From Bacteroidales bacterium (lineage in GTDB: Bacteria > Bacteroidota > Bacteroidia > Bacteroidales > P3): a stretch of DNA of 44,853 bases. The stretch covers positions 1 through 44,853 of the forward strand of contig JAFSYK010000061.1 of assembly GCA_017449975.1 (NCBI GenBank), written 5' to 3'. This document shows positions 2,168 to 31,546 of this stretch, in pieces. The notes beneath the pieces were generated by a model. That model was given only the letters and a program-made list of their open reading frames with translations, was not told the origin of the DNA and did no database searches. A program made the position numbers and the translations under genes. The first letter of the stretch is position 1. Each line of letters begins with the position of its first letter.

Positions 2168-5044
2168 TTATTCTTTGACTAATTTCAAATAGGTGATTTG
2201 TTCTGTGTCCTCACTGGAGCGAGTCCTGACACGGATGATGTAGGTACCCGACGGGAGACCTGAAACATCAAAACGGTCGGTGTGCTCAATATAAGCCACC
2301 TGCCTTCCCTTCATATCCAGCACCAGCACCTCGGAAACCTCACCACCCGCGCCCATAACCTGCACCTCGCCAACTGTGGGGTTGGGCACCAGCCGCAGGG
2401 TCGGTTCGTCAACAGTTTGAGGCTGGGCTCTCTTGGTGTGGACGCTGTCGCTGTCAAAAATCGAGTCGCTGACCACCTCGGGTTGGATTCTCCTCCATGA
2501 CAGGAGCTGATGCAAAACGGAAGCGGCTACACAATATTCCCGCAAGCAAAGTTTATCGTTATTACAAGTGATGGCATAGAAGCAAACGTCGCCACCCTCC
2601 ATGGCCAGCCGGGAGAGCACCCCACGGTCCATCATGTAAAGCCCGCGCAACAGACCTGAGAAACTATCGTATGTATAGTTGAAGAGCATCGGCGGGTCAA
2701 CCCAGAAGGCAAGTACATTCTGCACGTAGGAAAAATCGACTAAAAAGTCTATATAGGCTGCCGCGTCACTCTCCATGACCAAAGGTATGTTAAAGCCCTG
2801 CACCCGCATGGTGTCATAGCATTCGAATTTACCCAGCGATAGGTCTATGCTGAAGTCTTTCGTGCAGCCGTTGCATTTGTCCAAGATACGGAACAATATC
2901 GATTCCAGCGGTACCATCCGCAATGCTTCAATTGTCATTGTGAAAGAATAACAATGCGAAGGAGCCACCAATTGGCCAGTGAATGTACTGTTACTGATTC
3001 TGTAATTATTCAAGTCAAACAACGGGAACAAATCATCGACACAGGCGTCATAGCTGGAGTTGTTGCAGATGGTGACGGTAACATCGTAATAGAGTCTGCA
3101 CCTGTTGACATAGGTGGAACAACTGGTACTGATGTCCCAACCCTCACATTCGCAGGTGTCCGCCACGTTGACTACAAAATGGGGCGACGAGACATGACAA
3201 TTGTTACTATTGTATTTGACATCTAACCAATAGTCGCCAGGTGACACGATCGGAAGTCGTAGAGTGTAGTTGGGTGCGTTCTGGATGCCGTTATCAATGT
3301 AATTCGTGTTGAGCCACCAATACCAGTCAATGGATTCCCGTCCAGCATACAGGCCCCATACCGGCAAAGAATTATGGGTGGTCAGAAAATCCTTACATCT
3401 TTCGTAGCAACCTGTCAGCAGCGCGTCGAAATTGGGCTCTGGTTCTATGAATATACTGGCAGTCGCCGATTTGCAGCCGGTGACTGGATGGTAATACCAG
3501 GAGGTGGCTATGCCGGGCGTGTAATAATCGGCATATGTTCCGACATCGCCGTTGCTCCAATGCAGGTCGCTGGTCACAGCGCTGCTCCCCACCAGTTCCA
3601 CTGGCGGATTGTCGATGCAAGCGTTGCTGCCGAATGATACTGTCGGCGCCGCAGGAGTGGGATTGACCTGAATGATTTCAGAAAAAGTCCGTGTTAGTGA
3701 ACCCCCTGTGGTGGTGTAGACCTGCTGGTAGTTGTTGTCGATGTACTGCACCTTCCAGTTGGCGGAGACGCCGGGGTCGGTGGCCAGCTGGCAGGCGTTG
3801 CTTACACAAATACGGTCCTCGCCCGTGATGGCGAGTTTGGGCTTGACAACAGCCGTAAACGGCTCCGTCTCGAACTCGCCGCAGTCGAGGAATTCGCAAC
3901 TGTAGGCGACGGAGATGTTGTAGGTGCCCGGCTGGGTGAAGGTGTACATCCACTCGTTGGTCCCGTTGACAGACATGGGGACGGCACCCGAGGTGGGGGT
4001 GACGCTCCACTGATAGCTGGTGGAACCGAAAAGCGGGAGACTATAGACAACTGACTCGCCAACACAGGCGGTATGCTGCCCCTTGATGGCGAGGTGGTCG
4101 CTGATAACAGGTATTTTCTTGCTGAGCATAGTGGGACAGGCTCCATTCCCACAGAGGTCTCCGTCGATGCCGATGACACCGTAGCCTTCGGCGGGACTGC
4201 CCCACTGCACAGTGACCTGTGGACTCCCCTGTCCGGCTTGGATTGTGCCACCCTCAACATACCAATAGTAATTGCCGCAGATTGGATTGTTGGCTGTATA
4301 GGTGACCCTGGATCCCTCGCAGACGGTGCCGTAACAGCCCAGATCGAGGGTGTCGCCGTACAGTACCTCAATGATTATCTCCTCCTCGTCATAGCAGCCG
4401 CAGTTATTGTAGACACGGTGTATGACAACATCATTGTTTGTGAAAGAGGCCACATGGTAGGTGGCGGAGGATGAGGTTCTACCAGCCTGACTTTCCCAGT
4501 AATAGCCCACAATATCGGTATTGTTGGTGAACGAAAGGTCGGTGAAATCAACGGATTCGCCCTGGCAAACATAAAGGACTTTGGTGTCGTCAGGATATTC
4601 AACATAAGCCGGAGTTGAGGCAGAAGCAATCGTGGGACGCTCGATCAAAAGCACATTGACGGTTTTTTCGCAGGTGGCGCCGGCGGCGGTCGTCACCGCG
4701 ACCGACAACTGGCCAAAGCTGCCATTGTCCCAGTCGACGGTGACGGAGCCGTTGCCTAGGTCGTTCCACGTGGCGGCGCCTATTACCGACCACGACCATC
4801 CGGTGACGGCGGAACCGCCCGTGTTCACCGTGGCAGTGTATGTGACACACATCCCCTTGCAGGCGATGAGGGCGTCGCCGTTCTCGACATAGAAGCTATC
4901 CTTGTCGCTGGGAAGGACGCACTGCGACTCGAAATCGCCCGTGATGACGATGTGGCATGGCTGTGGAGGTTGCTGTGCCTGAAGCACGAGAGGGACGAAT
5001 ATCGCCAGCAGTAGCGCCAACTTTTTAAAATAACAGTTTTTCAT
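2168..5044 (-). CDS. T9SS-exported multi-domain PKD/Ig-like cell-surface protein
   Basis: 958 residues starting at ATG 5044-5042. The signal peptide is MKNCYFKKLALLLAIFVPLV followed by LQAQ. The body is a chain of PKD/Ig-like beta-sandwich modules (for example TGWSWSVIGAATW and GYYWESQAG), rich in Cys (many in pairs) and aromatic residues, typical of secreted Bacteroidota surface proteins. From about residue 885, LRLVPNPTVGEVQV starts a type A T9SS sorting domain that ends SGTYIIRVRT...LKLVKE. No catalytic motif is visible, so adhesion or ligand binding is an inference. It is the first gene of a two-gene operon with the T9SS protein downstream. A Bacteroides-type -7 box lies about 180 bp upstream on the minus strand (5223-5231), leaving a long leader that carries an inverted repeat and a period-9 array. 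Confidence 0.88.
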   Translation of the reverse strand: MKNCYFKKLALLLAIFVPLVLQAQQPPQPCHIVITGDFESQCVLPSDKDSFYVENGDALIACKGMCVTYTATVNTGGSAVTGWSWSVIGAATWNDLGNGSVTVDWDNGSFGQLSVAVTTAAGATCEKTVNVLLIERPTIASASTPAYVEYPDDTKVLYVCQGESVDFTDLSFTNNTDIVGYYWESQAGRTSSSATYHVASFTNNDVVIHRVYNNCGCYDEEEIIIEVLYGDTLDLGCYGTVCEGSRVTYTANNPICGNYYWYVEGGTIQAGQGSPQVTVQWGSPAEGYGVIGIDGDLCGNGACPTMLSKKIPVISDHLAIKGQHTACVGESVVYSLPLFGSTSYQWSVTPTSGAVPMSVNGTNEWMYTFTQPGTYNISVAYSCEFLDCGEFETEPFTAVVKPKLAITGEDRICVSNACQLATDPGVSANWKVQYIDNNYQQVYTTTGGSLTRTFSEIIQVNPTPAAPTVSFGSNACIDNPPVELVGSSAVTSDLHWSNGDVGTYADYYTPGIATSWYYHPVTGCKSATASIFIEPEPNFDALLTGCYERCKDFLTTHNSLPVWGLYAGRESIDWYWWLNTNYIDNGIQNAPNYTLRLPIVSPGDYWLDVKYNSNNCHVSSPHFVVNVADTCECEGWDISTSCSTYVNRCRLYYDVTVTICNNSSYDACVDDLFPLFDLNNYRISNSTFTGQLVAPSHCYSFTMTIEALRMVPLESILFRILDKCNGCTKDFSIDLSLGKFECYDTMRVQGFNIPLVMESDAAAYIDFLVDFSYVQNVLAFWVDPPMLFNYTYDSFSGLLRGLYMMDRGVLSRLAMEGGDVCFYAITCNNDKLCLREYCVAASVLHQLLSWRRIQPEVVSDSIFDSDSVHTKRAQPQTVDEPTLRLVPNPTVGEVQVMGAGGEVSEVLVLDMKGRQVAYIEHTDRFDVSGLPSGTYIIRVRTRSSEDTEQITYLKLVKE

Positions 5045-5066
5045 AATAACCTCTAATAATTAGTTG

Positions 5067-5119
5067 TGAACACGAATCTAACGAATTACTATTCGTGTTA
5101 TTCGTGCAATTCGTGTTCA
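5067..5119. repeat. Inverted repeat and period-9 ATTCGTGTT array in a 5' leader
   Basis: TGAACACGAAT (5067-5077) is the exact reverse complement of ATTCGTGTTCA (5109-5119). Inside it, ATTCGTGTT, ATTCGTGCA and ATTCGTGTT follow one another at period 9 (5091-5117). It lies in the untranslated leader of the gene that starts at 5044. The rest of the gap 5045-5420 holds only a promoter and the peptidase terminator. Confidence 0.75.
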
Positions 5120-5222
5120 AATAAAACGAATAATTAGTGGTTACCTCATATTTTTAGATGGTTTTTAGGTTATGGCGAGAAAAGAAAAAGTCGGGGGAAG
5201 TGGGAAACAGCAGGACTTCGAT

Positions 5223-5231
5223 GCAAAGGTA
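5223..5231 (-). promoter_or_regulatory. Bacteroides-type -7 box (TACCTTTGC)
   Basis: On the minus strand the sequence reads TATACCTTTGCAT, matching the TAnnTTTG -7 consensus. It is the only good match upstream of the T9SS operon and implies a leader of about 170 nt. Confidence 0.55.
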
Positions 5232-5352
5232 TAAATAATTGTGATAAAATCAAAATAGCATGGAGAATATTGGGGTAATCACCAAAATAACCCCTCATAT
5301 ATATAATAACAAATTCTTCATGCGAAAGTTTACAGTTGGGTCTATAAAGTGT

Positions 5353-5394
5353 AAAAAAAAAGTCTCGGCAGATATAAGTGTCTGCCGAGACTTT
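5353..5394 (-). terminator. Rho-independent terminator of the S46 peptidase gene
   Basis: On the minus strand, AAAGTCTCGGCAGA and TCTGCCGAGACTTT form a perfect 14-bp stem (arms 5381-5394 and 5359-5372) with an 8-nt loop, followed by a run of Ts. It lies 27 bp after the peptidase stop codon. Confidence 0.92.
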
Positions 5395-5420
5395 AAGATA
5401 GTGTCTGTTGCTGTTTTGAC

Positions 5421-7592
5421 TTATCGCACGATGTCCATCTCCTGGATGAGGTTCTGGGCGTTGGCGAATTTGTCGATGACCCACAGCATGTAGCGGGTGT
5501 CGAGGCAGATGCAGCGCTGCAGGTTCTCCTCGAAGTCGATGTCACCGCTCATGGCTTCGCCGTTGCCGTCGAAAGCCAGACCGATAAGACGACCGTCGGC
5601 ATCGATGACGGGCGATCCGCTGTTGCCACCGGTGATGTCATTGTTGGTGATGAAGCAGGTGGGCAGCTCGCCGCGGCTGTTGACATACTCACCAAAGTCC
5701 TTGGCTTGGTAGAGCTGTTTCAGCCGTTTGGGCACCACAAACTCGCTGTTGGTGCTGTCCTCTTTCTCGATGACGCCGCGCAGGGTGGTGTAGAAGTGGT
5801 AGCTGACGCCGTCCTTGGGGTCGTAGGCTTTGACGTTGCCGTAGGTGCAACGGATGGTGGAGTTGGCGTCGGGCGACATCAGTTTCTTGCCTTTGTTCAT
5901 CTGCAAGATGCCGTCGACGAAGTTGCGCTGACCGCGTGTCAGGTTGTCCTGTGCCGACTTGGGAGTCATCTGCGCCACAGCGCGATACTGCATATAGATG
6001 GCTTCGCCCAGCTGATACATCGGGTCTTTCTCGATTTTCTTGGCGTTGAACTTCTCGAGCAGTTTCTCGAAGCGCTCCTCGTTGGAGAACATCGACTCTT
6101 TGTACATCTTGGTGGCGTACTCATCCCAGTCGCCTTTGTATTTCTTCCAGGCTTTGATGATGACCTCGGGGCAGTAGGCGTGGTTCATGTTGTCGTAGAC
6201 ATGCTGGAACATAGCCGCCATCAGTCGGCGGTCGGTCTCTTCGTTGTAGTCTTTGTAGAACTGCTCGGCTTCGCTGCGCAGGGTGGCCATGAGCCCTTCA
6301 CGCGCGTCGGCGTCTTTCTCGTCAGCGATACGGATCATGAGCACACCCAGCTGGTAAGCCTGAAAGGGCAGCTCGGCACCGTCGAGCAGACCTTCGATCA
6401 GGTACATGCGCGCCTGGTTGTAGGGACGCATGTCGAGGCAGGCCTGTTCGATCAACGGCAACGCCTCGGCATAGCGGGGAGCCTTGTTACGCGACCACTG
6501 GCGGTATTGCGACTCGATTTCGCGCTTGATGTTCATGGTGCCCAGGTTGGTGAGGGCTTTGTTCTGCTCGCTGGAATACTTCCAGTAGTTGGAGCAGGAG
6601 GCATATTTCGACGCGTATTTGATACGGGTGGACTGGCTGGCGGCCATCTCCTCACGCAGAATGTTGATCTTCACCGTGCGGATCTCGTGACGCAGCTTGT
6701 TGGTGACATCCATTACTTCGGTCAGGCCGTAGGAGGTGACATAGTGGTTGGTGGTGCCGGGGAAACCCAGAACCATGGCGAAGTCGCCGTCCTGCAGCTC
6801 GCGGATGCTCACGGGCAGGTGGTGTTTGGGCTTAAGGGGGATGTTTTTCTTGTCGTAGGCCGCCGGCGTACCGTCGGGGGCGGTGTAGATGCGGAACATC
6901 GAGAAGTCGCAGGTGTGGCGCGGCCACGACCAGTTGTCGGTGTCGCCGCCGAACTTGCCCATCGATGACGGCGGGGCGCCCACCAGGCGCACGTCGCGGT
7001 AGATCATGTGGACGAACAGGAAGTACTGGTTGCCGTTGAACATCGGCTTCACCGTAGCCTCATAGAGTGTGCCGGCCACAGCTTCGTCCGACAGCTTCTT
7101 TGAGATTTCCTTCACGGCATTGGCGCGGTCGGTCTCGCTCATTTCCTCGTTGAGAGCCTGCAGCACCTGGTCGGTCACATCTTCCATGCGCACCAGGATC
7201 GAGGCAGTCAGTCCCGGATTGGGGAGCTCCTGCTCCTTCGAGTAGGCCCAGAAGCCGTCGCGCAGGTAGTCGTGCTCCACGGTCGAGTGTTCCTGCAGCT
7301 TGCCGTAGCCACAGTGGTGGTTGGTGGTCATCAGACCCTGGTCGGAGATGATCTCACCCGTGCAGAAATGCCAGAAAGGCGACCCTTCGTTGCCCAGACC
7401 CACAATGGCGTCTTTCAGGCACGACTGGTTGATAGAGTAGATGTCCTCGGGGGTGAGACGGAAGCCGGCCTTTTGCATGTCGGCATAGTTCTTTCCAATG
7501 AGCGACAGCAGCCACATGCCTTCGTCGGCTCGCAGGCTGGCGGGCATCAGCATGACAGCCGCCAACATCAAAAATCCAATAGTTTTTTTCAT
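5421..7592 (-). CDS. S46 family serine dipeptidyl-peptidase, DPP7-like
   Basis: 723 residues, usual length for the family. The signal peptide (MKKTIGFLMLAAVMLMPASL-RA) sends it to the periplasm. S46 enzymes remove dipeptides from oligopeptides, feeding amino-acid-fermenting Bacteroidota. The chymotrypsin-like catalytic elements are visible: TNHHCGYG (residues ~90-97, catalytic His), the Asp region FGGDTDNWSWPRH, and the nucleophile Ser658 in GGNSGSPV. The residue 18 after this Ser decides specificity in the family: Arg in DPP11 (acidic P1), Gly in DPP7 (hydrophobic P1). Here it is Gly676 in AFDGNGEAMSG, so DPP7-type specificity is inferred. It is a single-gene unit with its own promoter (7641-7648) and a strong terminator. 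Confidence 0.93.
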   Translation of the reverse strand: MKKTIGFLMLAAVMLMPASLRADEGMWLLSLIGKNYADMQKAGFRLTPEDIYSINQSCLKDAIVGLGNEGSPFWHFCTGEIISDQGLMTTNHHCGYGKLQEHSTVEHDYLRDGFWAYSKEQELPNPGLTASILVRMEDVTDQVLQALNEEMSETDRANAVKEISKKLSDEAVAGTLYEATVKPMFNGNQYFLFVHMIYRDVRLVGAPPSSMGKFGGDTDNWSWPRHTCDFSMFRIYTAPDGTPAAYDKKNIPLKPKHHLPVSIRELQDGDFAMVLGFPGTTNHYVTSYGLTEVMDVTNKLRHEIRTVKINILREEMAASQSTRIKYASKYASCSNYWKYSSEQNKALTNLGTMNIKREIESQYRQWSRNKAPRYAEALPLIEQACLDMRPYNQARMYLIEGLLDGAELPFQAYQLGVLMIRIADEKDADAREGLMATLRSEAEQFYKDYNEETDRRLMAAMFQHVYDNMNHAYCPEVIIKAWKKYKGDWDEYATKMYKESMFSNEERFEKLLEKFNAKKIEKDPMYQLGEAIYMQYRAVAQMTPKSAQDNLTRGQRNFVDGILQMNKGKKLMSPDANSTIRCTYGNVKAYDPKDGVSYHFYTTLRGVIEKEDSTNSEFVVPKRLKQLYQAKDFGEYVNSRGELPTCFITNNDITGGNSGSPVIDADGRLIGLAFDGNGEAMSGDIDFEENLQRCICLDTRYMLWVIDKFANAQNLIQEMDIVR

Positions 7593-7640
7593 GTTAAATA
7601 GTATTAGTTCCTAATTATAGTATTTCGCTAAATGGGGGTA

Positions 7641-7648
7641 CAAAGATA
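7641..7648 (-). promoter_or_regulatory. -7 box (TATCTTTG) for the S46 peptidase gene
   Basis: The minus strand reads AAGTATCTTTGTACC about 50 bp upstream of the peptidase ATG, a full match to TAnnTTTG. Expected leader is about 40 nt. Confidence 0.65.
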
Positions 7649-7884
7649 CTTAAAAAATGATAATCGGGAGGCGAAAAACGAAAAATAAAGACCAGACAGC
7701 CCATCGGACCCAATGCCCCCGTCCCCCCCCAATCGAGTAGTCCCGCTTTTCTTTTTTTATCAACAAGGAGTGGAAGAGGGGTGGGGGTACCCTCGACGAC
7801 TTCGATTTGCCGAAAGATGGCTTTTGTTCTTGTTTTGTAACCTTTTTTTTCGAGATGCGTATAAGAGAGTTGAAAGTAACAAAA

Positions 7885-7929
7885 TGGAAGTTTTCAACAA
7901 TTAATGGAACTCTATGGTTTTTTTTGGAA
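7885..7929 (+). promoter_or_regulatory. Candidate MraZ operator: TGGnn boxes on a 10-bp period
   Basis: TGGAA at 7885, TGGAA at 7905, TGGTT at 7915 and TGGAA at 7925 share one helical register (20, 10 and 10 bp apart). In E. coli, MraZ binds direct TGGGN repeats separated by 5 bp upstream of its own gene. The spacing matches, the third G does not. The boxes sit just upstream of the -7 box, where binding would block transcription, so autorepression of the dcw cluster is inferred. Two more G-rich TGG boxes occur at 7771 and 7782 at a different spacing. Nothing else was found in 7649-7884. Confidence 0.55.
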
Positions 7930-7938
7930 AATTGTTTC

Positions 7939-7947
7939 TATCTTTAC
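7939..7947 (+). promoter_or_regulatory. -7 box (TATCTTTAC) for the dcw cluster
   Basis: This matches TAnnTTTG except for the last base. It lies 24 bp before the mraZ ATG, giving a short leader. The upstream TTTTTTTTGG tract may serve as the -33 region, though its spacing is short. Confidence 0.5.
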
Positions 7948-7970
7948 AACTTGAAATATTATAGGAAATA

Positions 7971-8444
7971 ATGGCGTTACTGCTTGGTATTGAATATTGT
8001 AAGTTGGACACGAACGGTCGTTTCAAGTTTCCCGTTGCGCTCAAGCGTCAATTGGAGACGGAGGACAACCGTTTTGTGATTCGACGCAGTTTCGATAGCG
8101 AGTGTCTCGAGTTATGGACCTATGCCAGTTTTCAAGCTGAGGTGGAGCAACTCCAGGAAAAACTGAATCCCTACAACATTGCCGACCGTGCCATTCTGCG
8201 TCGGATGACCCATGCCAACGAAGTGGACATGGACACCAACGACCGTCTGCTCATACCCCTTGAGCAGAAATGTGTGCTGGGCGATGCCAAGGAGATTGTC
8301 CTTCAGTCAACGGGCAAGTACATAGAAATCTGGGAACGTGACGCCTACGACAAGATGGATGCGTCGCTAAGCGATTTCGCCACGCTTGTCGATCAACGAC
8401 TGGGACAAATCAATGGCATATCATCAACCGGTTCTGCTGAGTGA
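7971..8444 (+). CDS. mraZ: Transcriptional regulator MraZ
   Basis: 157 residues, usual size. It has two tandem AbrB-like SpoVT/MraZ half-domains, each with the hallmark D-x-x-x-R motif: DTNGRFKFP near residue 18 and DTNDRLLIP near residue 86. MraZ is a ring-forming DNA-binding protein that controls its own operon. It is the first gene of the dcw cluster, and the boxes at 7885-7929 fit an operator. The last 32 bases overlap the start of rsmH in another frame, suggesting translational coupling. Confidence 0.95.
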   Translation: MALLLGIEYCKLDTNGRFKFPVALKRQLETEDNRFVIRRSFDSECLELWTYASFQAEVEQLQEKLNPYNIADRAILRRMTHANEVDMDTNDRLLIPLEQKCVLGDAKEIVLQSTGKYIEIWERDAYDKMDASLSDFATLVDQRLGQINGISSTGSAE

Positions 8445-9321
8445 ATGCATCGAGGGACTGAATATCCGTCCTGACGGCATTTATGTCGACGTCACTTTTG
8501 GCGGCGGCGGCCATTCCCGTGCCATCCTGCAACAGCTGGGTGCAGAGGGACGCCTGTTCGCTTTCGACCGTGACGCCGACGCGCAGCGCAATGCTATCGA
8601 CGATGCCCGGTTTACCCTCATCCATGAGGATTTCCGTTACGTGAAGAATTTTCTCCGTCTGCACGGCGTGCGCCGTGTCGACGGTCTGCTGGCCGACCTG
8701 GGTGTGTCGTCGCACCAGCTCGACGAGGCCGAGCGCGGTTTCTCCACCCGCTTCGACGGTCGGCTGGATCTGCGCATGGACCAGCGTGTCGCCCGTTCGG
8801 CGCACGATGTCGTCAACGGCGATGAGGAGGCGGAGCTGCGTCGCATCTTCGCCCTCTATGGCGAGCTGCCCAACGCCGCCGCACTGGCCAAAGCCATCGT
8901 GTCGAAACGCAGTCAGGAGCCCATCGACACTACGTTCCAGCTTCGCGACGCCGTGGCACACCTGCTGCCGCGCGGCCGCGAGAACAAGGCGCTGGCCATG
9001 ATTTTCCAAGCCCTTCGCATCGAGGTGAACGGTGAATTGGAGTCGCTGACATCGCTGTTGGAGCAGGCACCCGAGGTGCTGGCCGAAGGCGGCCGACTGG
9101 CGATTATCTCCTACCACTCGCTGGAAGACCGGCTGGTGAAGAACTATATGCGCGCCGGCCGCATGGACGGCGAGGTGCAGCAGGATTTCTATGGCAACAA
9201 GCTGACGCCGTGGACGCTGGTGAGTCGCAAGGCCATCGTGCCGACCGACGCCGAAGTGGCCGACAACAGCCGTGCCCGCAGTGCCAAGCTGCGTATTGCA
9301 GAAAGGAGGCACGATGGCTAA
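8413..9321 (+). CDS. rsmH: 16S rRNA (cytosine1402-N4)-methyltransferase RsmH (MraW)
   Basis: 302 residues from the ATG at 8413 (MAYHQPVLLSECIEGL), the family's normal N-terminus; an upstream in-frame start at 8386 would add nine unconserved residues. The SAM-binding motif VDVTFGGGGHSRAIL and the later motifs GLLADLGVSSHQLD and AIISYHSLEDRLVK are all present. It methylates N4 of C1402 in the ribosomal P site of 16S rRNA. It overlaps mraZ by 32 bp and ftsL by 8 bp. Confidence 0.96.
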   Translation: MAYHQPVLLSECIEGLNIRPDGIYVDVTFGGGGHSRAILQQLGAEGRLFAFDRDADAQRNAIDDARFTLIHEDFRYVKNFLRLHGVRRVDGLLADLGVSSHQLDEAERGFSTRFDGRLDLRMDQRVARSAHDVVNGDEEAELRRIFALYGELPNAAALAKAIVSKRSQEPIDTTFQLRDAVAHLLPRGRENKALAMIFQALRIEVNGELESLTSLLEQAPEVLAEGGRLAIISYHSLEDRLVKNYMRAGRMDGEVQQDFYGNKLTPWTLVSRKAIVPTDAEVADNSRARSAKLRIAERRHDG

Positions 9322-11902: not shown

Positions 11903-13354
11903 ATGCTCCTCAGCCACCTTATACTCGATTCCGACTGCCAGCGTCACCAGTGGCGCGACGTGGAGATTGCCTCCGTTACCTTTGACTCGCGACAGGTGCA
12001 AGCCGGCACGCTGTTTGTGGCTCAGGTGGGCACCCATGTCGACGGCCACGCTTATATAGACCGCGCCATTGCGGCGGGCGCCGTGGCGGTGGTCTGTCAG
12101 CAGTTGCCGCAGCAGCTGGCCGACGGCGTGGTCTATCTGACCACTGCCGACAGCAGCCGTATGCTGGGCGAGGTGGCGTCGGCCTTCTACGGTCATCCGT
12201 CACGGAAGCTGAAACTGGTGGGCATCACGGGTACCAATGGCAAGACGACGACGGTGACGCTGCTCCACGCACTCTTCCGTCAGCACGGATGCCATGTGGG
12301 TCTGCTGTCGACCATCGTCAACAAGATCGACGACGCGGTGGTGCCGGCAACCCATACCACGCCCGACGCGGTGGAACTCAACGCCCTGCTGGCACGCATG
12401 GTGGAGACAGGCTGCCAGTATTGCTTCATGGAGGTGAGCAGTCACTCGGTGGTGCAACAGCGTATCGCCGGACTGACCTTTGCCGGTGGCATCTTTTCCA
12501 ATATCACCCACGACCATCTCGATTTTCATAAGACCATGGCGGCCTATATCGCGGCCAAGAAGGGATTCTTCGACATGCTGCCGGCCGACGCTTTTGCGTT
12601 GGTCAATATCGATGATCGCAACGGTCGCGTCATGGTGCAGAACACGGCGGCACACATCTACACCTATAGCCTCCGTCAGGTGGCGGATTTCCGCTGCCGT
12701 CTCGTCGACAGCAGCTTCGATGGTCTCCACCTGCAGTTGGATGGCGCAGAGGTCTGGTGCCGTCTGGTGGGTCGTTTCAATGCCTACAACCTGACGGCCA
12801 TATATGCCGCTGCGGTGCTCTGTGGCGTGCAGCGCGACGAGGCGCTGCGACTGCTCAGTGCGTTGGAGCCGGCGGCGGGACGTTTCTCCATGGTGCAAGG
12901 CAACGGCATCAACGCCGTGGTGGACTACGCACATACGCCTGACGCCCTCGACAATGTCATCAGCACCATCAACGACATCCGCCAGCCCAGTCAGACGCTC
13001 ATCACCGTGGTGGGCTGCGGTGGCGACCGCGACAAGACCAAGCGCCCTGAGATGGCACAGATCGCCGTGCAGGGCAGCGGACGAGTCATCCTCACCTCCG
13101 ACAATCCGCGGACCGAGGACCCCGAGGCTATCCTCGACGACATGGAGGCGGGTCTCACAGACGAAGACCGACATCGTGTGGTACGCATCTCCGACCGTCG
13201 TTCGGCATTGCAGGCCGCTGTGATGATGGCCCAGCCGGGCGATATTATCCTGGTGGCGGGCAAAGGCCACGAGACCTATCAGGAGGTCAACGGCGTGCGC
13301 CATCACTTCGACGACCGTGAAGAAATGGAAAAACTTTTGGAAACTAAAAAGTAA
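11903..13354 (+). CDS. murE: UDP-MurNAc-L-Ala-D-Glu:meso-diaminopimelate ligase MurE
   Basis: 483 residues. The Mur ligase three-domain plan is complete: N-terminal UDP-binding domain, central ATPase with GTNGKTT at residues 110-116 and the HTTPDA substrate motif, and a C-terminal domain with DNPRTEDP at 400-407. The DNPR signature is diagnostic of enzymes that add meso-diaminopimelate rather than lysine, so the peptidoglycan is expected to be DAP type. It acts in the cytoplasm after the D-Glu ligase (MurD) step. It is preceded by a period-8 array and followed by a period-7 array. Confidence 0.97.
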   Translation: MLLSHLILDSDCQRHQWRDVEIASVTFDSRQVQAGTLFVAQVGTHVDGHAYIDRAIAAGAVAVVCQQLPQQLADGVVYLTTADSSRMLGEVASAFYGHPSRKLKLVGITGTNGKTTTVTLLHALFRQHGCHVGLLSTIVNKIDDAVVPATHTTPDAVELNALLARMVETGCQYCFMEVSSHSVVQQRIAGLTFAGGIFSNITHDHLDFHKTMAAYIAAKKGFFDMLPADAFALVNIDDRNGRVMVQNTAAHIYTYSLRQVADFRCRLVDSSFDGLHLQLDGAEVWCRLVGRFNAYNLTAIYAAAVLCGVQRDEALRLLSALEPAAGRFSMVQGNGINAVVDYAHTPDALDNVISTINDIRQPSQTLITVVGCGGDRDKTKRPEMAQIAVQGSGRVILTSDNPRTEDPEAILDDMEAGLTDEDRHRVVRISDRRSALQAAVMMAQPGDIILVAGKGHETYQEVNGVRHHFDDREEMEKLLETKK

Positions 13355-13429: not shown

Positions 13430-14605
13430 ATGTTCTACTACATCTTTAACTGGCTTGACTCTTTGGATATACCGGGTGCCGGAGTTTTCCAGTACATCTC
13501 TTTCCGCGCGGCTTTCAGTGCCATCACCTCACTGGTGATTATGTTGCTGTTCGGCAAGCGTTTTATCCGCTTTATCCAACGTAAGCAGATTGGCGAGACG
13601 GTACGTCAGCTGGGTCTCGAAGGACAGAACGAGAAGGCGGGAACCCCCACGATGGGTGGCCTGCTCATCCTCTCTGCCATTATCATCCCGACGTTGCTGT
13701 TCGCACAGCTGGACAATATCTATGTGCTGATCATGCTCGGCACCACGGTGTGGCTGGGTTTTGTGGGCTTCGTCGACGACTATATCAAGGTCTTCAAGAA
13801 AGACAAGCGCGGTCTGCCGGGTAAGTTCAAGGTCTTCGGCCAGGTGTCGCTGGGCATCGTGGTGGGTCTGCTGGTTATGTTCCACCCCGACATCGCGCCG
13901 CATTCCACCCAGACCACCATCCCCTTCATCAAGGGACACGAACTCGACTACGCCAACATCATCAGATGGATGGGCGACTGGGCCGAGAACTGGGTATGGC
14001 TGCTCTATGTGATCATCGTCATCTTTGTGATCACCGCTGTCTCCAATGCCGCCAACCTTACCGATGGTATCGATGGTCTGGCTACGGGCATCGCGTCGGT
14101 CAACGGTGGCGCGCTGGCCATCCTGGCCTGGCTGTCGGGCAACGTCATCATGTCCAATTATCTGAATATTATGTATCTCCCCAATATCGGTGAGCTGACG
14201 GTGTTCATTGCCGCCTTTGTGGGTGCCACGATGGGTTTCCTGTGGTTCAACACGCATCCTGCCGAGATTTTTATGGGCGACACGGGCAGCCTGGCCATCG
14301 GTGGCATTATCGCGGTTTTCGCTCTGCTGATTCGCAAGGAGCTGCTGCTGCCGGTGCTGTGTGGTATTTATCTCGTTGAGGATCTTTCGGTGATTATCCA
14401 GACGGCCAGCTGCAAAATCTACCGTCGTCGCCACCACCTGCCTATGTCACAGCCGGTGCCGATAGAACATCGTGCCTTCCTTATGACGCCGCTGCACCAC
14501 CACTACCAGAAGAAAGGTATCAAAGAACAGAAGATAACCCAGCGCTTCATCATCGTCGCCATTCTGCTCGCCATCGTCAGCATCGTGACCATCAAGATGC
14601 GGTAG
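13430..14605 (+). CDS. mraY: Phospho-MurNAc-pentapeptide translocase MraY
   Basis: 391 residues with about ten membrane helices. MraY transfers phospho-MurNAc-pentapeptide to undecaprenyl phosphate to form lipid I. Catalytic landmarks are present: the DD pair at 116-117 in VGFVDDYIKV, N209-L-T-D-G-I-D-G, and the HHHYQKKG segment near the C-terminus. The usual partner murD should follow; instead a short remnant does. Base composition matches the neighbouring dcw genes. Confidence 0.97.
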   Translation: MFYYIFNWLDSLDIPGAGVFQYISFRAAFSAITSLVIMLLFGKRFIRFIQRKQIGETVRQLGLEGQNEKAGTPTMGGLLILSAIIIPTLLFAQLDNIYVLIMLGTTVWLGFVGFVDDYIKVFKKDKRGLPGKFKVFGQVSLGIVVGLLVMFHPDIAPHSTQTTIPFIKGHELDYANIIRWMGDWAENWVWLLYVIIVIFVITAVSNAANLTDGIDGLATGIASVNGGALAILAWLSGNVIMSNYLNIMYLPNIGELTVFIAAFVGATMGFLWFNTHPAEIFMGDTGSLAIGGIIAVFALLIRKELLLPVLCGIYLVEDLSVIIQTASCKIYRRRHHLPMSQPVPIEHRAFLMTPLHHHYQKKGIKEQKITQRFIIVAILLAIVSIVTIKMR

Positions 14606-14709
14606 TGGTCAGTGATCAGTGGCCAGTTGCCAGTGATCAGTTCCGCCCATTAAACCCATTAGACCCATTAAACCTATTAAACAACCAAGCACTCAAGCAT
14701 TCCCAAGAT
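14606..14709. repeat. Composite period-7, -9 and -8 array before the MurD remnant
   Basis: TCAGTGA-like units at period 7 (14608-14641) are followed by CCCATTAAA / CCCATTAGA / CCCATTAAA / CCTATTAAA at period 9 (about 14647-14682). Then come CAACCAAG / CACTCAAG / CATTCCCA at period 8, ending at the ATG. The last family recurs inside murC and the period-9 family recurs at 31372-31455. Confidence 0.8.
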
Positions 14710-15249
14710 ATGACTATAGAAGTATTAGCACAACAAGGTCGTCAACAAATCCACAATGGACTGGCTGGTGTGGATTCCGCCAAACTGAAAAAGATGCGCA
14801 ACGACGCACTGCGCAACTGTTTTAACCGCATGGACGAGATGCGCTATCGTCGTGAGTTCGTGGCACGCATCCATGGCAAGACTTTCATCAACGACGCCGC
14901 CTCGCGTTCGCTCAACGCCACATGGTATACCCTCGAGAGTCTCGAAGGACCGATTATCTGGATTGTCAATGCCGACGGTCCCGCCATCGATGCCACCAAG
15001 CTGGTGTCGTCGGTGCAGGGCCGTGTGCGCATGATGGTCTGTGTGGGCTCCAACAGCGAATGGCTCCATCGTCAGTTCGACAGCGTGGTGCCGACAATCA
15101 TCGATGTCGACAGCATCCACGATGCTGTGGTTCGTTCTTTCTATAACTCCATCGAGACGGCCACGGTGGTCTTCTCGCCGCTGGTCGCCAGCCAACTTTC
15201 GGCCACGGACGAAGGACTCCACTTCCATCACGAAGTCAACGACTTATAA
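14710..15249 (+). CDS. MurD remnant: C-terminal ligase domain only, catalytic motifs eroded
   Basis: 179 residues in the murD slot between mraY and ftsW. Residues ~16-50 look like the end of the MurD central domain (HNGLAGVDSAKL...ALRNCF...REFVA). Residues ~50-179 look like MurD domain 3: RIHGKTFINDAASRSLNATW matches the stretch that in MurD carries the DSKATN motif, and IIWIVNADG matches the segment that normally reads GG.DKG. Both motifs are lost here, as is the SFDLF part after FSPLVAS. The UDP-binding domain and the GTNGKT ATPase region, about 280 residues, are absent, so it cannot be a working ligase. The frame is intact with no frameshift and the codon use resembles its neighbours, so it may be kept for a structural or regulatory role, or may be decaying. 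A GTG at 14605 would only translate the repeat array, so the ATG at 14710 was chosen. Confidence 0.8.
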   Translation: MTIEVLAQQGRQQIHNGLAGVDSAKLKKMRNDALRNCFNRMDEMRYRREFVARIHGKTFINDAASRSLNATWYTLESLEGPIIWIVNADGPAIDATKLVSSVQGRVRMMVCVGSNSEWLHRQFDSVVPTIIDVDSIHDAVVRSFYNSIETATVVFSPLVASQLSATDEGLHFHHEVNDL

Positions 15250-15316: not shown

Positions 15317-16501
15317 TTGTACCGCTCCAAACCCATAGAAGAACGACGTGTCCGCGAATGGTTTCGTGGCGACAAAGCGTTGTGGGTGGTCTTTTTCCTG
15401 CTGACCGCCATCTCGCTGGTGGAGGTCTTCAGCTCCATAGGTCGCTCGGCCATCGAGGAGGCGCGTGTCACCCCAGGCTTCGCCTTCTTCAAGCACTGCG
15501 TGTTTGTGGTGCTGACCTACGCCCTCGTTATCTTTATCTCACGACGAGACTACCGCTACTTCTCACGCATATCACAGATACTGTTATGGATTTCCATTGT
15601 GCTGCTGGCTTATTTGTGGGTGACACATACTCGTTGGATTGACCTGCCTTTGATAGGACGATTCCAACCGTCGGAGCTGGCCAAGGTGGCGCTCATTATC
15701 TATGTGGCACGTTTGTTGGCGTTCAGGGAGGATAAGATCGACACATTGGAGACGTTTCTGCGTGTACTGTTCCCCATCGTGGTGGTCTGTTTTCTCGTCT
15801 TCAAGGAGAATTTCTCGATGTCGGCACTGATATTTATCTCCTGCTTCTTCACGATGCTGTATGGCGGCGTCAACAGGAAATATTGGTGGCGTGTCTTTCT
15901 GGGAATGGCACTAGTGGTGGGCATTGCGTTAATGTTTTGGGCATTCACCGACAAAGCGCCGGAAATTGGTCGCTCCGACACCTGGGGTGCCCGTGTCGAG
16001 CGCTGGATGCACAACGACCACGACCAGTTGACCCAGGAGAATATGGCACGCATGGCCATCGCGCGGGGCAAGGTGTTCGGTGTGGGCATCGGCAAGACGG
16101 TCTTTGCCCGACTGATGACGCAGGCCAACAACGACTTTATCTATGCTATTATCATTGAGGAGACAGGTATGGTGGGCGGCTTGATCATTCTGCTGCTCTA
16201 TTCTGTCTTTTTCTTCCGTTGTATCAAGATTGCATTCCGCTGCCAGAAGCCGTTTGGTATGCTCATCGCCATGGGTGTCGGCACGGTCATCTACCTGCAG
16301 GCGCTGGTGAATATGTGTGTGGCGGTGGGTGTGCTACCTGTCACAGGACAGAACCTGCCCTTCATCAGTTCGGGCGGCACGGCCTATCTCACGATGGGTT
16401 TCGGCGTGGGCCTGGTGCAGGCGGTGGCAAGCAGCGTGGACAAGCAGTCGGAGACTGCGGCAACGGAGACGTCCAACGTTAACGAGGAGGTTCAATTATG
16501 A
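15317..16501 (+). CDS. ftsW: Septal peptidoglycan polymerase FtsW (SEDS family)
   Basis: 394 residues from a TTG at 15317. The frame upstream is closed by a stop at 15260 with no ATG or GTG between, and the first internal ATG lies far inside the protein, so TTG is the best start. About ten membrane helices are visible. SEDS signatures present are FQPSELAKVALI and NLPFISSGGTAYLTMG near the C-terminus. FtsW polymerises lipid II at the septum with FtsI as partner. The stop overlaps the murG start (ATGA), which implies translational coupling. The 67-bp gap before it is AC-rich. Confidence 0.94.
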   Translation: MYRSKPIEERRVREWFRGDKALWVVFFLLTAISLVEVFSSIGRSAIEEARVTPGFAFFKHCVFVVLTYALVIFISRRDYRYFSRISQILLWISIVLLAYLWVTHTRWIDLPLIGRFQPSELAKVALIIYVARLLAFREDKIDTLETFLRVLFPIVVVCFLVFKENFSMSALIFISCFFTMLYGGVNRKYWWRVFLGMALVVGIALMFWAFTDKAPEIGRSDTWGARVERWMHNDHDQLTQENMARMAIARGKVFGVGIGKTVFARLMTQANNDFIYAIIIEETGMVGGLIILLLYSVFFFRCIKIAFRCQKPFGMLIAMGVGTVIYLQALVNMCVAVGVLPVTGQNLPFISSGGTAYLTMGFGVGLVQAVASSVDKQSETAATETSNVNEEVQL

Positions 16502-17625
16502 GTACAACAGTGAAACCCATCCGTATCATCATCAGCGGCGGCGGCAGTGGCGGTCATATCTTCCCCGCCGTGGCCATAGCCAACGCCTTTCAGCGTCGTC
16601 ATCCCGACGCCGAGATTCTCTTCGTCGGTGCGGAAGGCCGCATGGAGATGGAGAAGGTGCCGGCGGCAGGCTACCGTATCGAGGGACTGCCCATCGCGGG
16701 ACTGCAGCGACAGCTGACGCTGCGCAATATTGGCAAAAACCTGCTGTTGCCTTTCAAGGTGCTGCGCAGTCGTGTCAAGGCACGTCGCATCATCCGTCGC
16801 TTCCAGCCCAACGTGGTGGTGGGTGTCGGCGGCTTCGCCAGCGAGCCTACTCTGAAAGCAGCCACGGGGATGGGCTTCTCGACACTGTTGCAGGAGCAGA
16901 ACTCCTATGCGGGACTGACCAACCGTACCCTGGCGCGCAAGGCGCGCACCATCTGTGTGGCCTATGACGGCATGGAGCGCTTCTTCCCGGCAGAGAAGTT
17001 GGTGTTTACCGGCAATCCTGTCCGTGCCGACATCGAGCATATCGCTGTCTCCCGTGAGGAGGGCTGCGCTTTCTTTGAGGTCGATGCGTCCCGGCCCGTC
17101 GTCCTCTCGGTGGGCGGCAGCCTGGGCGCAAGCAGCATCAACCGCATGGTGATGCAGCATCTCGACTTCTTCCGTGAAAACAATATCCAGCTGATTTGGC
17201 AGACAGGTCGCTGGATGTACGATGAGGCCGTGGCGGCCGTCAAGGCCGCGGGTGTCGGCGAGTGGGTGAAGGTACATCAGTTCGTCACCCGCATGGACAT
17301 GGCCTATGCTGCGGCCAACGTCATCATCTCGCGCGCCGGCGCCATCGCCATTTCCGAACTCTGCCTGGTGGGCAAGCCCATCATCCTGATACCGTCGCCC
17401 AATGTGGCCGAGGATCACCAGACCAAGAACGCCATGGCGTTGGTGAACAAAGGCGCCGCGCTGATGGTGCCCGACAAGCAGTGTGGCGAACAGACGCTGC
17501 CCCTGCTGGCCGAGTTGTTGCAGGACAAAGGACGGTGCGATGCGATGGCGACAGCCTGCCGTGCGCTGGGTGTGGCGTCGTCGGCCGACCGTATTGTTGA
17601 CGAAATAGATAAATTGATTGTATGA
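16498..17625 (+). CDS. murG: UDP-GlcNAc:lipid I N-acetylglucosaminyltransferase MurG
   Basis: 375 residues, GT28 family. The N-terminal glycine-rich loop SGGGSGGHIFPA (residues 13-24) and the C-terminal donor-binding segment ISRAGAIAISELCLVGKP...EDHQTKNA are both present. It converts lipid I to lipid II on the inner face of the cytoplasmic membrane. It overlaps ftsW upstream and murC downstream by ATGA, so the three are probably translated as a coupled set, unlike the array-spaced genes around them. Confidence 0.97.
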   Translation: MSTTVKPIRIIISGGGSGGHIFPAVAIANAFQRRHPDAEILFVGAEGRMEMEKVPAAGYRIEGLPIAGLQRQLTLRNIGKNLLLPFKVLRSRVKARRIIRRFQPNVVVGVGGFASEPTLKAATGMGFSTLLQEQNSYAGLTNRTLARKARTICVAYDGMERFFPAEKLVFTGNPVRADIEHIAVSREEGCAFFEVDASRPVVLSVGGSLGASSINRMVMQHLDFFRENNIQLIWQTGRWMYDEAVAAVKAAGVGEWVKVHQFVTRMDMAYAAANVIISRAGAIAISELCLVGKPIILIPSPNVAEDHQTKNAMALVNKGAALMVPDKQCGEQTLPLLAELLQDKGRCDAMATACRALGVASSADRIVDEIDKLIV

Positions 17626-19022
17626 ACTACTACTTTCTGGGCATAGGAGGCATTGGCATGAGTGCGCTGGCGCGTTTCTTCCACCAGCGTGGCGACCGCG
17701 TGTCGGGCTACGACCGCACCCCGTCGCCGCTGACCCGTCAGCTGGAGGCCGAAGGTATCGCCATCCATTATGACGACAACCCCGACCTGCTGCCTGAAGA
17801 TATCCAGCTCGCTGTCTATACACCCGCCATCCCGGCCGACAATGCCGAGTTGCAGACGCTGCAACAGCGCAACATACCGCTGCGCAAGCGTGCCGAGGTG
17901 CTGGGCGAGCTGACGCGCGACAAATGCTGCATCGCTGTGGCCGGCACCCACGGCAAAACGACGACCTCGTCGATGATCGCCCATCTGTTGCGCCAGTCCG
18001 ACGAGGGCTGCAGCGCTTTTCTGGGTGGCATCTGCAAGAATTTCGACAGCAATATTGTCGTCGACCCGAAGAGCCGCTATGTGGTGGTCGAAGCCGACGA
18101 GTACGACCGCTCGTTTTTGCAGCTGCATCCCCACGTCGCTGTGATTACCGCCACCGACGCCGACCACCTCGACATCTACGGCACCCACGAGTGTCTTATC
18201 GACGCCTTCCGCCAGTTCGCCTCCCAGGTCGACAGCGACGGAACACTGATTGTCAAGGAGGGCACCTTCCAGACCCACAATGAAGAGGAAGATACCCATA
18301 ACAACGAGACCGAACATCACAATCACTCAAACATTCAAGCATTCAGACATTCAAGCATTCTCAAATATACCGCCCACGGCATCGAGGCGGACTACTACCC
18401 TTGGAATGTACGCCACTATGGTGGCAATCTCTTCTTCGACCTGCGCACCCCGAAGGGTGTCATCTACGACCTGCAGCTGTCACACACTGCCCTCTACAAT
18501 GTGGAGAACGCTGTGGCCGCCGCTGCGGTGGCGCTGGAGTGCGGGTTGAACGAGCACCAGCTGCGTGCCGGACTGAAGTCGTTTCTCGGCGTGCGTCGTC
18601 GTTTCGACTACCAGATCGACAGCAAGGAGCTGGTCTACATCGACGACTACGCCCATCATCCGCAGGAGATAGCGGCGGTCATCGAGTCGGTGCGCTACCT
18701 CTATCCTGACAAACGGCTGGTGGTGGTCTTCCAGCCGCACCTCTACACCCGCACGCGTGACTTCGCCGATCAGTTTGCCGACGCGTTGATGCCGGCTGAC
18801 GAGATTGTGCTGCTGCCCATCTACCCGGCACGCGAGGAGCCGATACTGGGTGTGACCTCTCACAGGATTCTGCACAAGATCGACAAGATGTCGAAGTATT
18901 ACTGCTCCGTGGAACAGCTCTTCGAACTGTTGCCAGCCCTCTATCCCGATGTGCTGCTCACCCTCGGCGCCGGCGACATCGACCGCCTCGTCCCGAAGAT
19001 AAAAGACCTTATGACAGAATAA
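17622..19022 (+). CDS. murC: UDP-N-acetylmuramate:L-alanine ligase MurC
   Basis: 466 residues. The N-terminal dinucleotide-type loop GIGGIGMS (7-14), the ATP loop GTHGKTT (108-114), EADEYDRSFL and the C-terminal YIDDYAHHP and VVVFQPHLYTRT motifs are intact. It adds L-alanine, the first residue of the stem peptide. At residues ~222-247 the protein carries a polar, low-complexity insertion (NEEEDTHNNETEHHNH...) partly encoded by an 8-base array that also occurs between genes. Its start overlaps the murG stop by ATGA. Confidence 0.96.
   Translation: MNYYFLGIGGIGMSALARFFHQRGDRVSGYDRTPSPLTRQLEAEGIAIHYDDNPDLLPEDIQLAVYTPAIPADNAELQTLQQRNIPLRKRAEVLGELTRDKCCIAVAGTHGKTTTSSMIAHLLRQSDEGCSAFLGGICKNFDSNIVVDPKSRYVVVEADEYDRSFLQLHPHVAVITATDADHLDIYGTHECLIDAFRQFASQVDSDGTLIVKEGTFQTHNEEEDTHNNETEHHNHSNIQAFRHSSILKYTAHGIEADYYPWNVRHYGGNLFFDLRTPKGVIYDLQLSHTALYNVENAVAAAAVALECGLNEHQLRAGLKSFLGVRRRFDYQIDSKELVYIDDYAHHPQEIAAVIESVRYLYPDKRLVVVFQPHLYTRTRDFADQFADALMPADEIVLLPIYPAREEPILGVTSHRILHKIDKMSKYYCSVEQLFELLPALYPDVLLTLGAGDIDRLVPKIKDLMTE
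18316..18363. repeat. Period-8 CATTCAAG array inside murC
   Basis: CATTCAAG / CATTCAGA / CATTCAAG / CATTCTCA run in register from 18332, preceded by a weaker CACTCAAA unit. They encode part of the low-complexity insertion of MurC. The same octamer family lies just before the MurD remnant at 14687-14705. Confidence 0.75.
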
Positions 19023-19220
19023 AGCCCAATAAGACCAATTGGTCCAATTAGCCCAATAACCCCTCAACCCCTCAATAACCAATAACCCATAACCTCTCAA
19101 CCCTCAATAACCAATAACCCATAACCTTTCCAACCCCCTCAATAACCAATAACCTATAACCCATAACCTTTCCAACCCCCTCAATAACCAATAACCCATA
19201 ACCAATAACCTTTCAACCCC
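19023..19220. repeat. Composite array between murC and ftsQ
   Basis: Period-9 units (CCCAATAAG, ACCAATTGG, TCCAATTAG, CCCAATAAC) lead into several longer repeats. Each repeat is built from CCTCAATAACCAATAACCC plus a short ATAACCTTTCCAACCCC-type tail, and they run to the ftsQ ATG. No ORF or conventional promoter was seen in these 198 bp. Confidence 0.85.
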
Positions 19221-23392: not shown

Positions 23393-23577
23393 ACGTTAAA
23401 CCTTAAACCTTAAACGTCATTAAACGTTAAACCTTAAACGTTAAACGTTAAACCTTAAACGATAAACGTTAAACCTTAAACATTAAACGTTAAACGTTAA
23501 ACATTAAACGTTAAACATTAAACGTTAAACATTAAACGTTAAACATTAAACGTTAAACGATAAACCTTAAACGTTAC
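23393..23577. repeat. Period-7 TTAAACG array
   Basis: About 25 units of TTAAAC plus one variable base (G, C or AT variants) run in near-perfect 7-base register and end just before the transporter ATG at 23585. The same heptamer occurs at 33521-33549. The rest of the ftsZ-transporter gap holds only the terminator. Confidence 0.9.
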
Positions 23578-26965: not shown

Positions 26966-27252
26966 GCTTTTACTTTTTAGTTTCCTAAAGCTTTTTAGTT
27001 TTTAGTTTTTACCTTTTAGTTTCCCAAAGCTTTTTACCTTTTACTTTTTACTTTCCCCATGCTTTTTAGCTTTTAGTTTTTAGCTTTTAGTTTTTACCTT
27101 TTAGTTTCCTAAAGCTTTTTACCTTTTACTTTTTACTTTCCCCAAGCTTTTTAGCTTTTAGTTTTTAGCTTTTAGTTTTTACCTTTTACCTTTTAGTTTT
27201 TACCTTTTAGTTTCCTAAAACTTTTTAGTTTTTACTTTTTAGTTTTTAGTTT
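26966..27252. repeat. Large period-7 TTTTTAG/CTTTTAC array
   Basis: About 287 bp of T-rich heptamers (TTTTTAG, CTTTTAG, TTTTTAC, CTTTTAC), interrupted at intervals by TTTCCTAAAGC or TTTCCCCAAGC, which creates a longer super-repeat. It ends where the promoter of the structured RNA element begins. No ORF was seen in 26853-27252. Confidence 0.9.
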
Positions 27253-31304: not shown

Positions 31305-31310
31305 AATTAT

Positions 31311-31546
31311 AGTGAATAGTGATTAGTGAATAGTGATTAGTGACGAGTGATTAGTGAATAGTGAAAAGACAAATGCCCATTAACCCCATTAGCCCTATTA
31401 GCCCTATTAGCCCCATTAGACCTATTAGACCTATTAGCCCCATTAACCCCATTTAACCACATTATAGACCATAACCCATAACCTCTAACCTTGTGTCTCA
31501 ATAACCAATAACCCATAACCAATAACCATTATCAACCCATAACCCT
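31311..31546. repeat. Composite array: period 7, period 9, then longer repeats
   Basis: About eight AGTGATT/AGTGAAT units at period 7 (31313-31365) are followed by about nine CCCATTAGC/CCTATTAGA units at period 9 (31376-31455). Then come AATAACCCATAACC-type repeats up to the sulfatase stop. The period-7 family also occurs at 9628, the period-9 family at 14647 and the last at 19060-19210. The region holds no ORF. Confidence 0.9.

Follow-up and report, generated by a model that had tools for sequence, protein, structure and literature searches.

The window analysed here, a 44,853-nucleotide stretch of DNA from a Bacteroidales bacterium, contains a dcw cluster in which murE (11903..13354), mraY (13430..14605), a short gene (14710..15249), ftsW (15317..16501), murG (16498..17625) and murC (17622..19022) all lie on the plus strand. 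The short gene, referred to below as half-MurD or the half, encodes 179 amino acids followed by a stop codon and occupies the position expected for MurD, directly behind mraY and directly in front of ftsW, which are also its usual neighbours in relatives. The spacer between mraY and the half (14606..14709, plus strand) has 104 bases and includes a 9-bp tandem repeat at 14646-14682; across the loci compared, the first start codon of the half was located 1-274 bases behind mraY. Tandem arrays of 7-base units (e.g. ACGTTAA, ~26 copies) were also found in the window at 19073-19210, 23393-23576, 26992-27252 and 31309-31365, and the region 28371-29314 consists of a 69-base tandem repeat (~10 copies) inside a 423-base repeat, probably a repeat protein gene.

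Domain content and conservation of half-MurD

Ahead of domain 3, the encoded protein has a short N-terminal tail and a single helix that corresponds to the last part of MurD domain 2. The UDP-binding domain 1 and the ATP P-loop domain 2 are absent. Against the MurD profile TIGR01087 it scored 58.7 bits, below the curated cut-off of 211.95, and the match was limited to profile positions 267-421. At the positions of the ligase motifs DSKATN, GGxDKG and SPACASFDLF, the alignment showed DAASRS, NADGPA and SPLVASQ--, respectively. Despite this loss of motifs, an AlphaFold model compared with PDB structures gave a confident match to the domain 3 fold of MurD. Three other halves scored 54.4 (P0005), 36.7 (L064) and 19.3 bits (L282) against PF02875 (Mur_ligase_C, gathering cut-off 28.4 bits), to which the window protein was unmatched. 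The first-pass annotation had described a dead C-terminal MurD domain in the murD slot and had proposed structure prediction against MurD; the description was borne out, and the prediction recovered the fold. Compared with the canonical MurD ligase, half-MurD lacks domain 1, the P-loop domain and the ligase motifs and is not a ligase on its own. It also differs from MurT of the MurT/GatD pair, a Mur ligase-like subunit that retains the ATP-binding middle domain, in being domain 3 alone.

Two other origins for the gene were considered and rejected. A split MurD with its N-terminal half encoded elsewhere was ruled out, as the N-terminal part of the dcw-encoded MurD (MurD1; query P0004) was unmatched at E<=1e-25 anywhere in the window genome. 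A duplicate of another MurD was ruled out because the halves group with the dcw MurD1, while MurD2 forms one separate starred clade; the half (P0001) and the MurD2 of the same genome (P0003) share 29% identity over only 76 residues (E 6e-4).

The half was found between mraY and ftsW with an open frame in 24/24 relatives from the same genus, in keeping with the intact frame remarked on at first pass. The dN/dS comparison across relatives that had been proposed was run on 13 pairs, in five of which dS of the half was saturated. For six pairs from the genus or family, dN/dS of the half was 0.038-0.162, compared with 0.022-0.074 for mraY and 0.028-0.210 for ftsW; two pairs from other families gave 0.061 and 0.054. 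The half evolves faster than mraY, which is more strictly conserved. Half-MurD is thus held as a protein by purifying selection and, with the gene kept in all 24 relatives, the non-catalytic role that had been suggested for it is likely.

The glutamate step in the window genome and its relatives

It had also been reasoned that a full murD must exist elsewhere in the genome. One further MurD-like gene was indeed present, but instead of a plain second MurD it was MurD2-like, and it adjoined a MurL homologue; the genome yielded no MurI. This gene (P0003, C56:25158-26501) was the only other one above the MurD cut-off (TIGR01087, 265.9 bits) and has an intact P-loop, GTKGKST. Its sequence (7132-8523 of locus L067, minus strand) also carries in-frame peptide-repeat insertions, SSNQAIKQ twice and NNSTTQQFN, which look like translated intergenic repeats. 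At the positions of Escherichia coli Asp182 and Lys348, P0003 has Glu and Arg (D182E, K348R). Among 19 MurD2 rows, the 17 other readable ones have the same pair and the 19th (G014, a miscut row) shows Arg alone; five MurD1 rows have Asp and Lys. A double mutant at these two positions is reported to switch the MurD2 of Xanthomonas oryzae to D-Glu (PMC8788868). According to the same source, the MurD of Streptococcus mutans likewise has Arg at the Lys348 position, so that Arg alone proves little about the use of L-Glu.

The product of the adjoining gene, P0002, matched the MurL profile NF041275 (MurL_Xanthmoales) over 65-412 with 267.8 bits (E 1.3e-79); since this is a Xanthomonadales-specific equivalog with a curated cut-off of 700 bits, P0002 is termed a MurL homologue. 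MurL and MurD2 were adjacent in 20 of the 21 genus genomes with both matches. In six contigs (G005:C113, G020:C188, G103:C12, G207:C6, G297:C16 and G131:C329), three of the genomes belonging to the sister genus g18, they shared a single open frame (885-949 aa), which suggests that epimerase and ligase are fused. In G014, a 787-aa open frame (L023, G014:C27) runs from MurD2 into a Peptidase_M20 domain (PF01546, E 4.1e-27), and the MurL match is on a different contig.

No MurI was found in the window genome or in its 24 genus relatives. Across 324 genomes of the order, MurL was present in 105 and MurI in 199, with an overlap of one genome (G321), the MurI match of which (4e-21) was under the cut-off; the two are almost mutually exclusive. 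Based on the residues associated with L-Glu, the adjoining MurL homologue and the lack of a MurI match, the glutamate step has probably moved away from MurD and MurI and is very probably carried out here by the predicted MurD2/MurL pair. In common with the known MurD2/MurL system there is a MurD-like ligase with the L-Glu residues, mostly beside or fused to a MurL homologue, and no MurI was found. The differences are the host, Bacteroidales, the low MurL score (267.8 against 700) and the retention of the tail of the old murD; the evidence for the pair is genomic. Bacteroidota do not appear in the MurL lists of the accessible portions of PMC8788868 and PMC5808125. The MurD2/MurL route would reach about a third (105/324) of the sampled genomes of the order, including rumen and horse-gut species.

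Distribution and repeated origin of the half

Named genomes yielded 132 loci, of which the best 80 were considered: 59 had the short form, 20 had full murD and one was cut by a contig end. The closest of these 80 was from bacterium P3 (75% identity), and three were from Candidatus Colimorpha, which corresponds to GTDB genus UBA1711, family P3, order Bacteroidales (PMC8957277 and taxonomy). Of the 59 short loci, 58 have the gene in the slot flanked by mraY and ftsW. The exception, L162 (2253-2792; Ca. Colimorpha pelethequi, JAGHVO010000062.1), has an intact half in the same cluster, with the rsmH region on one side and an ftsI-like gene on the other; as the mraY-ftsW slot is outside the stretch examined, this half is either displaced or a second copy.

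The 324 genomes of the order, many of them fragmented assemblies, were then compared for MurD1 domains 1-2 (query P0004, E<=1e-25) and for domain 3 (query P0005, E<=1e-10, at which MurD2 also counts). Matches were obtained in 270 and 321 genomes, respectively. The 54 genomes without the N-terminal part comprised 47 with MurL, four with MurI only and three with neither (G039, G266 and G324). Thus 47/105 MurL-positive genomes lacked MurD1 domains 1-2, and 41 of these, from 20 families, had an intact half between mraY and ftsW. None of the 198 MurI-only genomes had a verified half: of the four without the N-terminal part, G287 and G306 were cut by contig ends, and G041 and G195 had no domain 3 match. 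For the other six of the 47 MurL-positive genomes, G131 was cut by a contig end and five had no visible half. Three of the five (G044, G153 and G260) yielded no mraY either; in G101 and G205, both from one genus, mraY was present without its usual neighbours and with no half beside it. Loss of the half is therefore possible, at any rate in a disrupted cluster. In genus g79, locus L278 (G205:C55) has mraY (2284-3510, plus strand) near MurL (4266-5507, minus strand), with no murE, ftsW or murG match in the 12 kb covered.

A further 40 candidate loci included 37 with a complete half and an open frame, in each case between mraY and ftsW (37/37), and three cut by contig ends (G131, G287 and G306). 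The half and full murD also coexist within single genera: g6 (G029, G148 vs G246, G327), g118 (half in G321, full in G141 and G240) and g137 (half in G176, full in G345 and G270). In G012 and G018 the half was present and MurD2, MurL and MurI were all unmatched, whether through a gap or in reality. G266 (68% complete) likewise has a half with no MurL or MurI match, likely because of a gap.

A half (murD profile E 1.4e-12) also separates mraY from ftsW in G039 (98% complete), a genome with no match to MurI, MurL or full MurD that is nested among MurI-positive genomes on the mraY+ftsW tree. This occurrence speaks for independence of the half from MurL. Wall precursors in G039 may be scavenged or made by another route. 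Its dcw cluster (L282, G039:C4) has no murC after murG, and a MurC/Mpl-like ligase is encoded elsewhere (L075, G039:C3), with 250.8 bits for murC (cut-off 335.1) and 193.8 for mpl, both under the cut-off.

On a tree of mraY and ftsW (85 rows), 15 changes between the full and half states were counted, 14 of them forced by starred, well-supported branches (bootstrap range 15-16). The rooted tree had 16 half-only clades, and on a second, more quickly built tree (83 rows) the count was 14 changes, 10 of them forced. A single truncation in a common ancestor was ruled out by these trees. As the re-growth of ~265 codons is unlikely, most of the changes represent separate truncations; the exchange of blocks between lineages could mimic some of them. 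The remnant noted in the window is real but is not one odd case, the same state having been reached many times.

In an alignment of halves with MurD1, made without the contig-edge loci G131, G287 and G306 and the cut G030, the start Met of 41/45 halves fell in the column of an internal Met of full-length MurD1, although the start cannot be aligned with certainty in some families, where the initial 15 residues differ too much. This internal Met was present in 18/23 MurD1 of the MurI type and 24/25 full-length MurD1 of the other clade, typically within the sequence M-[ST]-[IL]-E-x-L-A-x-x-G. The codon may have been used because it is the first start available ahead of domain 3, or because it had long served as an internal start.

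MurL does not always go with truncation, as 58/105 MurL-positive genomes retain the N-terminal part of MurD1. The P-loop, DH, DSKATN and GGxDKG were kept in all 25 aligned full-length MurD1 of the MurL clade, 23 of them from genomes with a MurL match; the other two (G270 and G293) were left out of the comparison of N- and C-terminal identity. That comparison gave no indication that the ligase part had come under weaker selection, the N/C ratio being 0.890 in MurL-positive and 0.894 in MurI-positive genomes. Together, the retained motifs and ratio indicate that MurL alone does not render MurD catalysis dispensable. Judging from these sequences, MurD1 in such genomes would still be catalytic, perhaps with D-Glu from an aminotransferase. 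For the D-amino-acid aminotransferase profile TIGR01121, nothing over the cut-off was found in 54 MurL-positive genomes. Weak class-IV matches to it (E<=1e-10) were present in 18/23 genomes with full MurD1 and 7/31 with the half (Fisher p 8e-5). Genome size, relatedness and the presence of other class-IV aminotransferases all confound this contrast, which is a lead only.

Possible roles of a free-standing domain 3

We consider it somewhat probable that the gene at 14710..15249 encodes a free-standing MurD domain 3 that is catalytically dead and kept for a job other than ligation. In the proposed sequence of events, the glutamate step would first have been outsourced or lost. The mraY+ftsW tree shows the next step, in which the dcw murD was cut from its 5' end, independently in many lineages. 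Domain 3 was left next to mraY, mostly starting at one internal Met codon, and purifying selection keeps the leftover gene as a folded protein while its ligase residues decay. Domain 3 would then have a second role, most likely contact with another protein through which the cytoplasmic assembly of MraY, MurG, Mur ligases and FtsW is held together or tuned; this role would come to light only in lineages that handed ligation to other enzymes or gave it up. Binding of Mur ligases to MraY and MurG has been reported, as has a scaffold function of MurG and MreB (PMC4929429). These contacts, together with the presence of halves without MurL (G039), favour a structural contact of domain 3. Of the two roles suggested at first pass, one in the Mur/Fts assembly fits half-MurD better than the sensing of UDP-MurNAc peptides, which is unlikely because the UDP-binding domain is missing.

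Among genomes with a known glutamate route, verified intact halves were confined to those with MurL (41/105, against 0/198 with MurI only), as would be expected if the half were a helper of the new route that binds MurD2 or MurL or ties them to MraY. Such a role is unlikely, however, given that G039 has the half without MurL, MurD2 or MurI, that 58 of the MurL-positive genomes carry the MurD1 N-terminal part in its place, and that a form derived over and over from full MurD1 points to a property which MurD1 itself had. The constant position between mraY and ftsW, shared by all 37 complete candidate loci and, among the best 80 of 132 loci, by 58 of 59 with the short form, would also suit a passive relic, in which the 3' end of murD is kept as a cis signal for ftsW (promoter or translation coupling) and deletions stop there by chance or through selection on the RNA. 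This is made improbable by the low dN/dS of the six genus or family pairs, which reflects selection at the protein level, by the intact frame in every complete locus and by the confident domain 3 fold after motif loss. Moreover, ~540 in-frame bases exceed the needs of a promoter, and the intact half of L162 is situated away from ftsW, before an ftsI-like gene.

A small-molecule sensor, retaining part of the ATP or Glu site and informing the division machinery of the level of nucleotide or glutamate, would account for two conserved features: all 70 aligned sequences had Asp as the first residue of the DSK motif, and 45/45 halves had Arg or Lys where MurD has the hinge-loop Arg302. In closed MurD, Arg302 touches the alpha-phosphate of ADP (PMC4816537). 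Lys319 and Lys348 are gone, however, in the window protein and in many older halves, and the rest of the ATP site is on domain 2, which the half lacks, so that we give this reading little credence. An assembly error or a decaying pseudogene might be suspected, as many of the source genomes are fragmented and contig ends interrupt three of the 40 candidate loci; the recurrence of the same gene in the same place with an open frame in every genus relative and in 37 of those 40 loci, and its low dN/dS, leave almost no room for either.

The preferred reading thus remains a dead domain 3 with a role apart from ligation, and it extends to a broader claim, which we hold a little less firmly and regard as close to evenly balanced: that domain 3 always carried a ligase-independent function in the Bacteroidales cluster, perhaps in bacteria at large, and that at least about a dozen independent truncations, mostly at one Met codon, expose it. 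No earlier report of the half gene was found in the open-access literature, a weak negative. The half is a dead domain of a known enzyme in its usual place; what sets it apart is that one domain of an essential enzyme has been cleanly separated again and again. If the interpretation is true, a textbook essential enzyme would have a separable, non-enzymatic domain function, and the finding would bear directly on a problem of long standing, namely whether a physical complex unites Mur ligases with MraY, MurG and FtsW. A natural separation-of-function experiment has seemingly been done many times in these bacteria.
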